A stretch of 64,000 bases of DNA from Methanosarcina mazei S-6 (GTDB taxonomy: Archaea; Halobacteriota; Methanosarcinia; Methanosarcinales; Methanosarcinaceae): NCBI RefSeq assembly GCF_000970205.1, contig NZ_CP009512.1, positions 1,798,001-1,862,000 of the forward strand, in the 5' to 3' direction. Positions 2,959 to 60,076 of the stretch are shown here, piece by piece. The position numbers were made by a program, and so were the translations under genes. The notes below the pieces were generated by a model. That model was not told where the DNA came from and did no database searches. It saw only the letters and a program-made list of their open reading frames with translations. Each line of letters opens with the position of its first letter. Position 1 is the stretch's first letter.

Positions 2959-3054
2959 TATTTTGTTCAAATAATATTTTGTTCAAATAATATTTTGTTC
3001 AAATAATATTTTGTTCAAATAATATTTTGTTCAAATAATATTTTGTTCAAATAA
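2959..3054. repeat. Six tandem copies of a 16-bp unit
   Basis: The unit TATTTTGTTCAAATAA is repeated six times without mismatch, starting 17 bp after the stop of the glycosyltransferase. The length is not a multiple of 3 and the array is AT-rich, so it is not coding. It belongs to a set of short arrays in this window that lie just behind genes. Confidence 0.95.
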
Positions 3055-3242
3055 TATGGCAGTGTCGCGAATTTGTTGTAAATTCCAGGTTAATTTTTTG
3101 GAGACTGTATGCGGAACTAATTTACCGACCTCGAATTTTTGACTCAAAAACTTCTTAAATTTGTAATTTTACAGAAAAATTGGCACACTGCCTTCAAATA
3201 CGTTACAAAAAATTTTTACACGACATTGAAAGTGTTAGTAAT

Positions 3243-10816: not shown

Positions 10817-10885
10817 AAAATTTCACCTCATATATGTTTAAACTATTAGCTTCCAGCTTTCCCTTTATTCAATTTTTTTCTGCAG

Positions 10886-11025
10886 TTTTTATACCTTTTA
10901 TTGTTCTTAAGAAAGATATCTTTTTATACCTTTTATTGTTCTTAAGAAAGATATCTTTTTATACCTTTTATTGTTCTTAAGAAAGATATCTTTTTATGCC
11001 TTTTATTTTTCTTAAGAAAGATATC
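10886..11025 (-). repeat. Four tandem 35-bp repeats upstream of hcp
   Basis: Copies at 10886-10920, 10921-10955, 10956-10990 and 10991-11025; the first three are identical and the fourth has two changes. Each contains two palindromes, TTCTTAAGAA and AAGATATCTT, and on the minus strand a TATA-like AAAAGGTATAAAAA. The copy nearest the gene would place a transcription start about 50 bases before the hcp ATG. The array could be multiplied promoter or regulator sites. Confidence 0.9.
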
Positions 11026-11299
11026 TTTTTAATACCGCTATCATTAAGATACTCTTTTCTATGTGATTGTAAATCATATATAGCAGACAGTTTCGAAATA
11101 GGTATCAGTATCGAAGCCTATACTAACTAAGAACATATCAGGAGCCTGAAGATAGATAAAACCGCTGAATAGAAAATGCAGGAAGTTTGGGGAGTTCAGA
11201 GACGGGCTTTTTCTTGCACTGTTATTTTTCTGGTACAGGATTACTATTTTTGATGAAATACAGAGAATAGTTTTAAACTTCAGATTTTAACGTTAACTT

Positions 11300-11473: not shown

Positions 11474-13054
11474 ATGAGCAAAAAAGCAACCTATCCGAAA
11501 GTAATGTGCACGCAGCACCCGGACTCTGCATCAAAATATATCTCCACGCAGGAAGAACCCGGTGAAGCCATTGAAGCTGCGGTGGTATTCGGCTGTGACG
11601 AATATATGCCGGATTATGAAGGGAAGGCAACTCCTTACCACCAGAACGTCCAGATAGTATCCAGATTCATAGAAGAAACGGACCTTATACCCGGAAAAGA
11701 CATTTTCATTACTCCGCGTGCTCCGAGCGCAGCTCAGGAAAACCGGTTCAGGCAGCTTATGGTCATGATGTCCATTGCCGAAGCCAACCACGGAGCCCTT
11801 GAATATTCGGATGTGCAGGCAATTAACGAATTTGTTCACCCAATGACAGGCACGGTAGGGGAAATTCTTGACGCTCAGCAGCACATGGTAGATGTGGGCG
11901 AACTTGCAAAAAAAGAATTCGGTGTTGCAATGGAGGTCCCACGTATAATTCCCCTGATAGAGGATGCTCCTGCCCTGCTTCATGCAAAAGAACTTGCAGA
12001 AAACACACTCCTTTCCTGGGAAAAACGGTTTGGAGCTGCACCGGAAAAATTCAGGGTATTCCTGGGCAAATCCGATTCTGCCCTCTCTTTCGGGCACGTG
12101 GCAAGTACGCTCTCATGCAAATACGCCATAAGCGGGATTTCCGAAATGGACTTAGAACTTGACACCAGCACAGGCATCATATTCGGAGCAGGGACTCTGC
12201 CTTTTAGAGGGCACCTGAGCCTGAAAAATGCTGAAAACTTTTTCAGGGAATATCGGGGCATAGGGACAATCACCCTCCAGTCAGCTCTCAGGTACAGCCA
12301 CGATAAAGGAGAAGCTGAAGCCCTGGTACGCCTTGCAGAAGAGAGGCTTCCGGAATCTCCAGAAATCTATTCCGGCGAAGAAAAAGAAGAGATTGTAAAC
12401 CTTATAGGAATTTTCGGGGCAAGGTATAACCGCATTATCCGTGAAATGTCCTGCACCATAAACCAGCTTGCAGGCCTCCTACCTCAGCAGCGGGACCGCC
12501 TTATGCATAAAGGGACAGGAGGTTATTCGAGGAATGTTCCCGATATTTCAGGCCTGGTATGCCTCTGCCGGAAGGATGTCGGAAAAGAGCTCAGCGCGAG
12601 TATGCCTGCAGAAGACCTGAACCTTCCACGGGCTATTAAGTTCACAGGTGCGCTTTATTCTATAGGCCTGCCTCCGGAGTTTATAGGCACGGGCACAGCC
12701 CTTGAAGAAGCCAGGGAAAAGCTGGGAGAAGAATCCTGTGAAAGGCTGCTTAAGAAATATTTCCCTTCCCTTGCCAGTGACCTGAGCTTTGCATCCGGCT
12801 ACCTGGACCTCAATGTAGCTTCCCGCTTCCTTCCAGAAGCCTGCCTGAAAGAAATCCGCAAAGACGTTGAGGTCTTGCGCGACACTTTCAGCCTTAAAGT
12901 CCAGCCAGAACCCTCGTACCGCATCCTGCTCGAAATGATGCAGCCAGACCTTTTGCAGGCAGGAACGAAAGGAAACTGCATGGATGAAGAAGTCTCGCAG
13001 CTTGTATGTTCAACTCTCACCAAAATGGGAAAAATCAGAAAGGCTCTGGGTTAA
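11474..13054 (+). CDS. ppcA: Phosphoenolpyruvate carboxylase, archaeal type
   Basis: A 526-residue enzyme of the short archaeal PEPC family (about 500 residues, against about 900 in bacterial PEPC). It begins KKATYPKVMCTQHPDSASKY, the usual PpcA start, and contains conserved FLGKSDSALSFG, GAGTLPFRGH and the C-terminal KGTGGYSRN and QGNC-like KGNCMDEEV segments. It carboxylates PEP with bicarbonate to oxaloacetate in the cytosol and so feeds the partial oxidative or reductive TCA reactions and aspartate and glutamate synthesis. It is monocistronic, with a long upstream spacer. The ATG at 11474 follows GAGGGT at 11460. Confidence 0.97.
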   Translation: MSKKATYPKVMCTQHPDSASKYISTQEEPGEAIEAAVVFGCDEYMPDYEGKATPYHQNVQIVSRFIEETDLIPGKDIFITPRAPSAAQENRFRQLMVMMSIAEANHGALEYSDVQAINEFVHPMTGTVGEILDAQQHMVDVGELAKKEFGVAMEVPRIIPLIEDAPALLHAKELAENTLLSWEKRFGAAPEKFRVFLGKSDSALSFGHVASTLSCKYAISGISEMDLELDTSTGIIFGAGTLPFRGHLSLKNAENFFREYRGIGTITLQSALRYSHDKGEAEALVRLAEERLPESPEIYSGEEKEEIVNLIGIFGARYNRIIREMSCTINQLAGLLPQQRDRLMHKGTGGYSRNVPDISGLVCLCRKDVGKELSASMPAEDLNLPRAIKFTGALYSIGLPPEFIGTGTALEEAREKLGEESCERLLKKYFPSLASDLSFASGYLDLNVASRFLPEACLKEIRKDVEVLRDTFSLKVQPEPSYRILLEMMQPDLLQAGTKGNCMDEEVSQLVCSTLTKMGKIRKALG

Positions 13055-17351: not shown

Positions 17352-17765
<414 letters not shown>

Positions 17766-18002
17766 AAATTTACCTCTCAATTATAAGTATATAAGCATTC
17801 ACTTATACATATCAGTCAGGTATTACAAATATTTTTCTTATTTATCCTTGAGATAGTTGTGCTGCAACTAGCAAACAGGTTTCTTTTTTCGGGTTCTTAG
17901 TAAAGAAAGTTATTCCTCAATCCTTACAGGCTTTTTCTATCAGGGATTTCTCTCGTTTCCCTGTTGTTGAACGAGCGAAGCGAGTGAAATAGACTTCGTG
18001 CT

Positions 18003-35034: not shown

Positions 35035-35252
35035 AAGAGGTCAAATTTACTTTGAAGAACATACTTTTAGACTTTTCCATTATTATTTTCGGGCGGAAGA
35101 AACTACATCCCTGAAAAAGAAGCGTTTTTTGAACCGCAAATAAATATGGAACTCTTCCGGCAACTTTCTGCGGCTCTGCCAGGATTGAGAAATAACCTTG
35201 TGAAAGAGGGCTTAAAATGGTTGAAATCGAATTGGGATTGATAAATAGATTT

Positions 35253-35378
35253 GAGATGGTAAATAAAATTGAGATGGTAAATAAAATTGAGATGGTAAAT
35301 AAAATTGAGATGGTAAATAAAATTGAGATGGTAAATAAAATTGAGATGGTAAATAAAATTGAGATGGTAAATAAAAGT
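35253..35378. repeat. Seven 18-bp tandem repeats, open as EMVNKI hexapeptides
   Basis: The unit GAGATGGTAAATAAAATT starts at 35253 and recurs six more times, the last copy with one change. Because 18 is a multiple of 3, a 62-codon frame from ATG 35218 is open: MVEIELGLINRF, six EMVNKI, EMVNKSEIGIFKND. A GAAAGAGG stands before the ATG. It could be a small repeat protein, but the opposite strand is open too, as expected for any such array. The rest of 35035-35633 holds nothing recognised. Confidence 0.85.
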
Positions 35379-35633
35379 GAGATTGGTATTTTCAAGAATG
35401 ATTAGAACGGATTTTTTGAGACTCGAAGAATTTTTGCATCTTATTTGCTGGCATTCTGGCTCTTTTTTGTTTTGAGACAGGCTGTTTTACTTCTTAAGCA
35501 TGACAGGAAAGGTATGGCTAATATGGTTTATAGGTCAGGATTTTTACTGGTTCTTTCATGTGAGACTGAGAGTGTGGAGAGTGTGGAATAACAGTAATTT
35601 TATTTGAAGTCTTGTAATTTTTCACGGTAAAAA

Positions 35634-36622: not shown

Positions 36623-38104
36623 ATGAATTCTAAAATAGTAATCTGTCTATTCTTGCTGCTTATTATCGCAGCTTGTTCCGGATGTGTCTCCAAGCCGGCT
36701 GAGTCTGAAGTGAATACTGATAATAACCAGGACCTCAAAGAAGTGGAAGGGCTCTGGCTTGGGACCCTTGAAGTTCAGGGCGGAATGGAAGTAAGGCTGT
36801 TATTCAATATTTCTTCCAGCCCTGATGGTTCCGTTAATGCTACAATGGACAGTCTTGACCAGGGAGTAAAAGGAATACCTGTAGAAACTGTCACCTATAA
36901 GGACAGTAAACTCCGCCTTGATGTAAAATCCATAAGGGGCAGTTTTGAGGGTACACTCAAAGAGGACGGAAAGACAATAGAAGGGGAATGGAAACAGTCA
37001 GGTATATCTCTCCCGCTTGTGCTTTCTCGCATAGACGAAACCCCTGACACGCGAAGAGAGCAGGACCCTGTAAGACCCTATCCTTATGACGAAGAAGAAG
37101 TGGTTTATGAAAATGAAGGAGCAGGAGTGAAGCTTGCAGGCACATTAACCCTCCCGAGGTCTGAAGGTCCTTTCCCGGCAGTGATCCTTATAAGTGGTTC
37201 CGGCCAGCAAAACCGTGACGAAGAACTCCTGGGACACCGTCCGTTCCTTGTACTGTCGGACTACCTGACTCAAAGGGGAATCGCTGTCCTGCGGGTCGAT
37301 GACCGTGGAACAGGAGGTTCAACCGGAGACTTCTCACAGGCTACTTCTGAAGATTTCGCAGGAGATGTGCTTGCAGGTATTGATTATTTAAAAAGCCGCG
37401 AAGAGATAGACCCGACGCAGATAGGATTGATAGGGCACAGTGAAGGAGGTTTAATTGCTCCAATTGTAGCAGTGGAGTCCCGGGACGTTGCATTCATCGT
37501 ACTGATGGCAGGGCCCGGAATTACAGGCGAGGAAATCCTCTACCTTCAAAGTGAACTGATTTCCAGGGCAGAAGGGGTGGACAATGAGACAATAGCCCGG
37601 AATAATGCCCTTATGAAAAGCATATACTCTGCGATAAAAGAGGAACAGAATGATGAAATTGCTGCAGAAAAACTTCGGAAGCTTATGATGGATGAAATGG
37701 CAAATATGAGCGAAGAAGAAAAACAGAGCGCCGGCTATTCCGAAGCCGACCTCGATGCCCAGATCCAGTCTCTACTATCACCCTGGATGCGAAACTTCCT
37801 GACATACGATCCCAGACCCACCCTCATAAAAGTTAAATGCCCCGTACTCGCAATAAATGGTGAAAAAGACCTCCAGGTGCCTCCTGAGGAGAACCTTCAG
37901 GCAATAGAAGAAGCCCTTGAAGCAGGAGGCAACCAGGACTATACGGTAAAAGAACTTCCGGGTCTCAATCACCTTTTCCAGACCTCTCAAACAGGATCTC
38001 CATCTGAGTATGCAAGAATTGAAGAAACGATTTCACCGACAGCTCTGGAATTGATCGGAGACTGGATTTCGGAGAGGACCAGCGCTGCTGTAGAAAAACA
38101 ATAA
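36623..38104 (+). CDS. Alpha/beta hydrolase lipoprotein
   Basis: 493 residues. A lipoprotein signal peptide (CLFLLLIIAACSGC, anchoring Cys18 or Cys21) is followed by a beta-rich N-terminal domain (about 40-138, LWLGTLEVQGGMEVRLLF, a type often found before this hydrolase) and an alpha/beta hydrolase domain with oxyanion SGSGQQNRDE, nucleophile Ser273 in GHSEGG, and a C-terminal His in LPGLNHLFQ. It would act as an esterase or acyl peptidase outside the membrane. Divergent from the EamA gene. An eight-copy 13-bp array starts right behind its stop. Confidence 0.9.
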   Translation: MNSKIVICLFLLLIIAACSGCVSKPAESEVNTDNNQDLKEVEGLWLGTLEVQGGMEVRLLFNISSSPDGSVNATMDSLDQGVKGIPVETVTYKDSKLRLDVKSIRGSFEGTLKEDGKTIEGEWKQSGISLPLVLSRIDETPDTRREQDPVRPYPYDEEEVVYENEGAGVKLAGTLTLPRSEGPFPAVILISGSGQQNRDEELLGHRPFLVLSDYLTQRGIAVLRVDDRGTGGSTGDFSQATSEDFAGDVLAGIDYLKSREEIDPTQIGLIGHSEGGLIAPIVAVESRDVAFIVLMAGPGITGEEILYLQSELISRAEGVDNETIARNNALMKSIYSAIKEEQNDEIAAEKLRKLMMDEMANMSEEEKQSAGYSEADLDAQIQSLLSPWMRNFLTYDPRPTLIKVKCPVLAINGEKDLQVPPEENLQAIEEALEAGGNQDYTVKELPGLNHLFQTSQTGSPSEYARIEETISPTALELIGDWISERTSAAVEKQ

Positions 38105-38208
38105 AAGGTAATCATAGAAGGTAACTATAGAAGGTAATCATAGAAGGTAACTATAGAAGGTAACTATAGAAGGTAACTATAGAAGGTAACTATAGAAGGT
38201 AACCGTAG
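38105..38208. repeat. Eight 13-bp tandem repeats
   Basis: The unit AAGGTAACTATAG, with variants AAGGTAATCATAG (copies 1 and 3) and AAGGTAACCGTAG (copy 8), is repeated eight times starting immediately after the hydrolase stop codon. Confidence 0.96.
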
Positions 38209-38210
38209 AA

Positions 38211-38230
38211 GGAAAGAGAAGATTCTTTCC
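38211..38230 (+). terminator. Terminator-like hairpin behind the hydrolase
   Basis: GGAAAGA (38211-38217), a 6-base loop and TCTTTCC (38224-38230), followed by TCCCTTTACTTTTTTG, at the end of the 13-bp array. Confidence 0.5.
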
Positions 38231-43336: not shown

Positions 43337-43434
43337 TTAATCATCAAGCCTTAATTATCAAGCCTTAATTATCAAGCCTTAATTATCAAGCCTTAATTAT
43401 CAAGCCTTAATTATCAAGCCTTAATCATCAAGCC
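43337..43434. repeat. Seven 14-bp copies of the dtdA gene end
   Basis: Plus-strand unit TTAAT(T/C)ATCAAGCC at 43337, 43351, 43365, 43379, 43393, 43407 and 43421. On the minus strand the last of these is the dtdA end (Gly-Leu-Asp-Asp-stop) and each copy carries TAA. Confidence 0.95.
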
Positions 43435-59471: not shown

Positions 59472-59755
59472 ACCTTCTCCAGAGGTATTTTTTTAAGAAA
59501 CCTAACTCGAATATTTACTTAAAAACCTTTGTACTCAACCCGGGACTGCCTGAACCTGTTAGATAACAAAGTTTTTTCCAGAACCAATGCAAATTATCAT
59601 AAATATACATTACCATTCAGGTGCCTTAACAAAATTTTCAATCCGGGAATATAATTTTAGTATGTAATACGATTTTAATACCTGCTACAAACTTAATATT
59701 ACTGCAAACTTAATATTACTGCAAAATTAACATTGCTACAAAATCAACATTGCTT

Positions 59756-59830
59756 CAAACTTACATTATGCAAACTTACATTATGCAAACTTACATTATG
59801 CAAACTTACATTATGCAAACTTACATTATG
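59756..59830. repeat. Five perfect 15-bp tandem repeats within a larger degenerate array
   Basis: CAAACTTACATTATG occurs at 59756, 59771, 59786, 59801 and 59816. Degenerate units (AAACTTAATATTACTGC and AAATTTAACATTGATGC types) extend the array to about 59685-59880. The remaining spacer (59472-60076) shows a T-rich tract and a TATA-like TATATGCTTTACTTATAA near 60015-60032. Confidence 0.93.
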
Positions 59831-60076
59831 CAAACTTAACATCTGCTGCAAATTTAACATTGATGCAAATCTAACTTGATAAGTGTAAATAACAGGTTTT
59901 ATTTTACCTGTTATTTATCTTTATTTTTATCTGGTTTTATTTTTTATTCACTCTTATTTTTTATTGATTTTAATTTTAATTTCTTTTTTCTAATATTTCT
60001 TTAAACCAACAATTTTATATGCTTTACTTATAAAAACTTGTAAGTAAAATTCTGGACCTTTCCCGGGGCTGAAACA

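Follow-up and report, generated by a model that had tools for sequence, protein, structure and literature searches.

Introduction

YodB and HypR are redox repressors of bacteria that belong to the HxlR family, and NsrR and HxlR represent different families of regulators. For the hybrid cluster protein (HCP) of bacteria the function is NO reduction, and the role of Hcp in methanogens is treated as open, according to the excerpted text of PMC10210160; NsrR is named as a regulator of bacterial hcp in the references of the same paper. The genus Methanosarcina is also conspicuous for its satellites, of which 1908 were counted in nine genomes (excerpt of Subirana and Messeguer 2019, PMC6749651). Satellites were defined there as at least four regular tandem repeats with a unit of 10-200 nt. 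Table 1 of that paper lists 155 satellites for Methanosarcina mazei NZ_CP009512 (4.14 Mb), and units longer than 30 nt make up 4.52% of them.

Here, we investigated a tandem array in front of hcp in M. mazei, for which a first-pass annotation of the sequence had proposed that promoter or operator sites may be multiplied. The array, the leaders of related hcp genes, and the distribution of their promoter motif in the family were compared.

Materials and Methods

The window, that is, the whole 64-kb stretch of DNA analysed, comprises bases 1798001-1862000 of the single-contig genome (4,142,816 bp). The hcp copies were collected from 30 Methanosarcina genomes by protein search, and with three more upstream regions 26 were examined. 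One of them without a promoter match (L120) was kept out of the promoter alignment A1, whose 25 sequences are related and not independent. Broken or cut hcp genes (L121-L123) were unused, and weak matches (L030-L036) were treated as not hcp. Dyad spacers were counted in 35 other promoters, namely 24 from Methanosarcina hcp genes (one being the second hcp of the M. mazei genome itself) and 11 from other genera; L008 is absent from the dyad and spacer enrichment counts. Profile R1 is sequence-only and was built solely from Methanosarcina hcp promoters. The search with it covered 80 family genomes, including 13 of Methanosarcina. The genome sets searched contained one genome per species.

Results

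Structure of the Array

The array is situated between hcp and the divergent phosphoenolpyruvate carboxylase gene (table 1). The fourfold 35-bp repeat that the first-pass annotation had noticed before hcp is real, with four units at 10886-11025 and 4.3 copies in the whole array. Read on the hcp strand, units 2-4 are the same and the promoter-proximal unit is two substitutions away from them. The divergence of unit 1 and the identity of units 2-4 fit an older first duplication and then a recent gain of units at the hcp end; the recent amplification suggested earlier from the near-identity of the copies is supported as a local expansion before hcp. Each unit contains two 10-bp palindromes, TTCTTAAGAA and AAGATATCTT, which are present four times each and perfect in all cases, as had been described. 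The TATA-like motif assigned to every unit was borne out in three of them, where GGTATAAAA stands at leader offsets 110, 145, and 180; the promoter-proximal unit has GGCATAAAAA at this place.

Table 1. Positions in the Window of the hcp Locus, Its Predicted Leader, and Its Promoter Motifs
Feature	Position	Strand	Basis
hcp, hybrid cluster protein/prismane, 540 aa	9194..10816	-	ORF; Pfam PF03063, E 1.3e-174
GAGGTG, likely hcp ribosome-binding site	10824..10829	-	Read from sequence
Tandem array, 35 bp x 4.3, in the predicted transcribed hcp leader	10886..11036	-	TRF; 96% matches, no indels, score 279
Array units 2-4, mutually identical	10891..10995	-	Unit comparison
Three D2-like motifs GGYATAAAAAGATATC, N4 spacer, across the unit 1/2, 2/3, and 3/4 borders	10915..11000	-	Dyad scan; 11000-10985, 10965-10950, 10930-10915
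Array unit 1, promoter-proximal, two substitutions versus the others	10996..11030	-	Leader offset 45 (offset 0 = 11075)
Dyad D2 GGTATTAAAAAGATATC (N5), conserved, overlaps the promoter-side array end	11020..11036	-	Dyad scan, promoter comparison
Dyad D1 AGTATCTTAATGATAGC (N5), conserved, abuts D2	11037..11053	-	Dyad scan, promoter comparison
Conserved hcp promoter core GAAACTGTCTGCTATATAT (BRE + TATA)	11076..11094	-	25/26 hcp copies
Upstream N6 dyads	11089..11124	-	11124-11107 (9/12), 11118-11101 (10/12)
Phosphoenolpyruvate carboxylase (ppcA type), divergent neighbour of hcp	11474..13054	+	ORF; Pfam PF14010, E 6.1e-113

The array as such is far above chance expectation. For a single 35-bp unit to hold two such palindromes is only slightly uncommon: this was so in 0.4-0.5% of units from shuffling or a Markov model, and in 4.6% of 673 AT-rich 35-mers from the window, a sample that includes the array itself. 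When a 19-bp motif of the unit was searched in the genome with at most three mismatches, the four array copies and three single sites with 2-3 mismatches were obtained, and the reversed control gave three matches. A scan of 17 unit bases against viral contigs returned eight contigs with one match apiece.

By the definition cited above, the hcp array reaches the minimum of four tandem repeats with its 4.3 copies, and its 35-bp unit falls within the size range and, as judged by TRF, repeats regularly (96% matches, no indels). In the 64-kb window, 12 arrays with at least four copies and a period of at least 10 were detected by TRF, the hcp array included. The 11 that were tested, with 59911-59981 left out, lay each at most 14% inside ORFs of at least 150 aa. 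Other arrays, at 2959-3057, 35230-35388, 38097-38212, 43337-43434, and 59688-59869, have units of 13-18 bp in 6-11 copies and are mostly outside ORFs of that length. A run of (TTA)24 at 17362-17434 is placed inside a 142-aa frame (17352-17780), which reads like an ArsR-type regulator; the run encodes a poly-Asn tail, whose length its contraction or expansion would alter.

Small arrays occurred in 5 of the 24 other hcp leaders and in 28 of 118 pieces of 160 nt taken from non-coding parts of the window, with no excess in the leaders. The idea that the hcp leader is a duplication hot spot selected for extra dyads is unsupported by these counts.

The Promoter Upstream of the Array and the Length of the Leader

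The motif GAAACT-N7-ATATAT with its flanks was strongly conserved in 25 of the 26 Methanosarcina hcp copies, L120 being the exception, and both GAAACT and ATATAT were invariant across the 25-sequence alignment. In the window, this promoter (11094-11076, minus strand) is upstream of the array. In archaea, transcription is expected to start 20-25 nt below the TATA box. The hcp start is accordingly predicted near 11050-11055, about 20-25 nt downstream of TATA, which would place the array in the transcribed leader.

The proposal of multiplied promoters, in which every repeat would carry a TATA box in AAAAGGTATAAAAA and several starts would lie 35 bp apart, has to be weighed against this position. 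On its face AAAAGGTATAAAAA is a plausible TBP site for a second promoter within the array, TATAAAAA after A-rich sequence could bind TBP/TFB and occurs in three exact copies, and if transcription began from the last copy of AAAAGGTATAAAAA, the leader would be about 50 nt long. However, the BRE/TATA conserved throughout the genus is upstream of the repeats, and the TATA/BRE of the repeat was not conserved in hcp leaders: GGTATAAAA was found in none of the 24 other Methanosarcina leaders, and plain TATAAAA in one. We consider a row of promoters highly improbable; it was dropped as the main reading after the alignment of the 25 promoters, and the claim of multiplied promoters is left unsupported.

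The distance from TATA to ATG is 259 nt in the window hcp, 230 nt in L017, and 133-197 nt in the other 23 leaders. If three of the four units are removed in silico, the M. mazei leader shrinks to 154 nt, which by this comparison would be a normal length. The one-unit leader outscored the full leader in alignments to all seven relatives tested, a gain that is partly just saved gap cost. For instance, the alignment to L026 scored 165.5 with one unit, 134.5 with the full leader, and 77 with a shuffled one; the smallest gain was 119.5 versus 118 (L011). GAGGTG or AAGGTG was seen in most orthologous hcp leaders. The other hcp copy in this genome, L037, has no array in its leader.

Considering that the array is downstream of the predicted start, it might also act in the RNA, where a self-complementary AU-rich leader would alter the translation of hcp or the stability of its mRNA. 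The leader folds somewhat more stably than dinucleotide shuffles (z score -2.18, 3/200), as expected from palindromic repeats, which fold well regardless of function. Moreover, hardly any structure is predicted for the 84 nt adjoining the start codon (-3.1 kcal/mol), and no credible Rfam family was matched, the one chance match reaching 18.9 bits where the cutoff is 135. A role in the RNA is very unlikely in our view.

Several displaced promoters were observed in the course of the comparison. An hcp-type promoter (L168, G025:C199:29645-29754) is found about 1.4 kb upstream of L120, the hcp copy that is itself promoterless, and now precedes a different 412-aa frame, possibly as a promoter captured after an insertion. 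A weaker second copy of the hcp promoter occurs near ppcA in L010, L171, and L169 (G007, G001, and G010). Downstream of it, L010 and L171 have a short frame similar to the N-terminus of Hcp, in which a cysteine is changed in G001; judged by eye, this second copy resembles what is left of a tandem duplication of hcp.

Dyads Around the Promoter

Repeated dyads of the form GGTATC-N5-GATACC surround the conserved promoter, and in many leaders they are phased 5, 22, and 39 nt past TATA. An N5 dyad matching at least 9/12 within 82 nt was found in 18 of the 24 other leaders versus 1.6% of shuffles; this contrast is descriptive, as the dyads were scored on the very sequences from which the consensus had been chosen, and the search of other genera with profile R1 is the more independent test. 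The leaders in the group of second hcp copies (L012, L014, and L118) were mostly without good dyads, and L037 looks similar. A conserved N6 dyad of the relatives corresponds to 11106-11089 in the window (GATACC-N6-GAAACT, 8/12 here by reading), and its right half is the BRE itself. Among dyads of at least 9/12 in the 35 other promoters, a spacer of N5 was found 49 times, N6 34 times, and N4 three times, against a shuffled background of 1-2 each. Spacers of 0, 11, and 12 bp were also above background (16, 17, and 22), and we read this excess as neighbouring half-sites of abutting dyads.

Since the array begins inside dyad D2, the extra units could multiply accessory sites for an HxlR-type (or other dimeric) regulator, so that copy number would tune the repression or induction of hcp. 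The overlap with D2 and the threefold repetition of GGYATAAAAAGATATC, with half-site matches of 9-10/12, speak for this possibility. Additional N5 dyads with 9/12 or better also occur lower down in the leaders of L017 and L028 (2/24 versus 1.9% of shuffles), and in L017 a duplicated leader segment carries two further N5 dyads; together with the start of the array within D2, this segment could reflect selection for extra sites. On the other hand, the repeated units lack the conserved 5- or 6-bp spacer, N5 being present only in the pre-existing D2. The extra copies are poor operator candidates because their N4 spacer is rare in other promoters, and at the canonical spacing they match 6/12 only. 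The missing GGTATAAAA in the other leaders and the array-free leader of the second hcp copy also argue against a tuned row of sites. The regulator may bind the N4 copies weakly, and a function of the array as an accessory operator is conceivable but unlikely. The operator multiplication proposed in the first-pass annotation is weakly supported, by the start of the array inside a conserved dyad, and was given a lower rank because the spacer of the extra copies differs.

An HxlR-Family Regulator Associated With the Motif

In the M. mazei genome, profile R1 gave three convincing sites, namely both hcp copies (E 1.2e-21 and 7.2e-19) and a third at E 1.1e-5; the next match followed at E 0.017. The third site (G000:C1:1116885-1116972; L126, L170) is shared between two divergent genes. 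One, at G000:C1:1116966-1117319, encodes an HxlR-family regulator of 118 aa (PF01638), and the other a nitrite/sulfite-reductase-like protein of 219 aa (PF01077, PF03460), an arrangement that points to an operator common to the regulator and its neighbour. Sites of this type also exist in Methanosarcina genomes for which the protein search gave no full hcp, e.g., G001, G005, and G009. A second HxlR gene of the same genome (1118198-1118548, within the region G000:C1:1117380-1118548) is 71% identical to the first and adjoins a second frame that reads like a reductase. No R1 match was found beside it up to E 10, and one N6 dyad of 9/12 was present.

In the 80 family genomes, HxlR was found in 65 at E <= 1e-20 and hcp in 61 at E <= 1e-40; outside Methanosarcina, each is present in 52 genomes. 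Matches of R1 at E <= 0.01 occurred in 44 of the 80, and 36 were without a match at this threshold under stricter filters. Outside Methanosarcina there were 43 matches: 20 before hcp, 9 before HxlR, 8 between both, and 6 by neither. In other words, 37 of the 43 were at hcp and/or the divergent HxlR gene, and 17 abut HxlR. Of the six remaining matches, two precede an hcp-side match on the same contig by about 500 nt, one is an hcp-side match read on the other strand, and three are stray.

HxlR and hcp were divergent neighbours in 15 genomes outside Methanosarcina. We examined 11 of these intergenic regions: 9 contain an N5 dyad of at least 9/12 (L213 and L214 do not), and all 11 have an N6 dyad whose right half at the BRE position is GAAACT, GAAACC, or GACACT. 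By our own reading of the sequences, the HxlR protein of all 11 pairs starts with Met-Lys-Asp/Asn-Cys-Thr. At 14 named loci, R1 matched upstream of the hcp start at E <= 0.01 in six (E 8e-12 to 0.006), comprising three of Methanolobus, two of Methanomethylovorans, and one other Methanosarcinaceae MAG; no match at this threshold was obtained at two Methanococcoides and five bacterial or other loci among the 14. Only 1 of 80 named hcp loci, mostly from bacteria, had HxlR near hcp (tblastn E <= 1e-3, flanks of at most 2.5 kb). This one, the Thermoplasmata MAG L055, has the same divergent HxlR-hcp pair with an operator that is similar by eye (R1 E 0.21).

Discussion

Based on these comparisons, we think it likely that the array represents a young minisatellite within the transcribed hcp leader, that the promoter is probably under HxlR control, and that the extra units have a minor effect at most. 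The sequences themselves show the array and its collinearity with leaders that have a single copy, as well as the conservation of promoter and dyads and the association with HxlR. The array would have been made by tandem duplication, probably through slippage or else through unequal recombination, with GGTATtAAAAA and GGTATAAAAA as the similar flanks involved. Its place would be within the transcribed 5' leader, downstream of the conserved promoter/operator and ahead of the ribosome-binding site. Transcription of hcp would proceed from the conserved BRE/TATA, and an HxlR-family winged-helix regulator would bind in the start region, at the 17-bp dyads in tandem (RGTATC-N5-GATACY), and also over the BRE, at the N6 dyad, presumably as a repressor. 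The extra units would chiefly lengthen the leader by 105 nt, and we infer that this change is nearly neutral.

Control of the hcp promoter by an HxlR-family regulator on tandem 17-bp dyads is probable, judging from motif and gene order, and the reductase-like gene is likely co-regulated with hcp. The N-terminal cysteine and the targets lead us to guess that the signal sensed is a thiol or NO. A more far-reaching scenario can be envisaged, in which a previously unnoticed HxlR thiol sensor of Methanosarcinaceae controls hcp (and the siroheme-type reductase in Methanosarcina) on tandem 17-bp dyads, and in this M. mazei lineage the last dyad has become, through slippage, a low-affinity row of sites in the leader whose variable copy number sets the strength of the hcp response. 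We regard this scenario as improbable and prefer the near-neutral minisatellite.

By itself, the array is one more archaeal minisatellite, perhaps of use as a strain marker. The comparison of promoters yields a specific and cheaply testable prediction, namely an HxlR-family regulator of hcp across much of the Methanosarcinaceae. Among the matches listed for the literature on Methanosarcina, hcp, and HxlR, the titles and abstract openings contained no published description of HxlR control of hcp in this family. In addition, the likely co-regulated sulfite/nitrite-reductase-like protein is a useful clue to the role of Hcp in methanogens, since that role is treated as open in the excerpted text of PMC10210160.

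Compared with the satellites described for Methanosarcina (excerpt of PMC6749651), the hcp array likewise consists of at least four regular tandem repeats with a unit within 10-200 nt. In contrast, its 35-bp unit is longer than most, and it lies in a gene leader where it overlaps a conserved operator. The predicted regulator resembles YodB and HypR in its HxlR domain (PF01638), in dyads over the promoter, and, by our own reading of the sequences, in a cysteine near the N-terminus. It differs from them in that the promoter is archaeal, that the HxlR protein is predicted to bind 17-bp tandem dyads with GTATC half-sites, and that the predicted targets are hcp and a sulfite/nitrite-reductase-like gene. 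As with NsrR in bacteria, a regulator would act on hcp, here one predicted to belong to the HxlR family.
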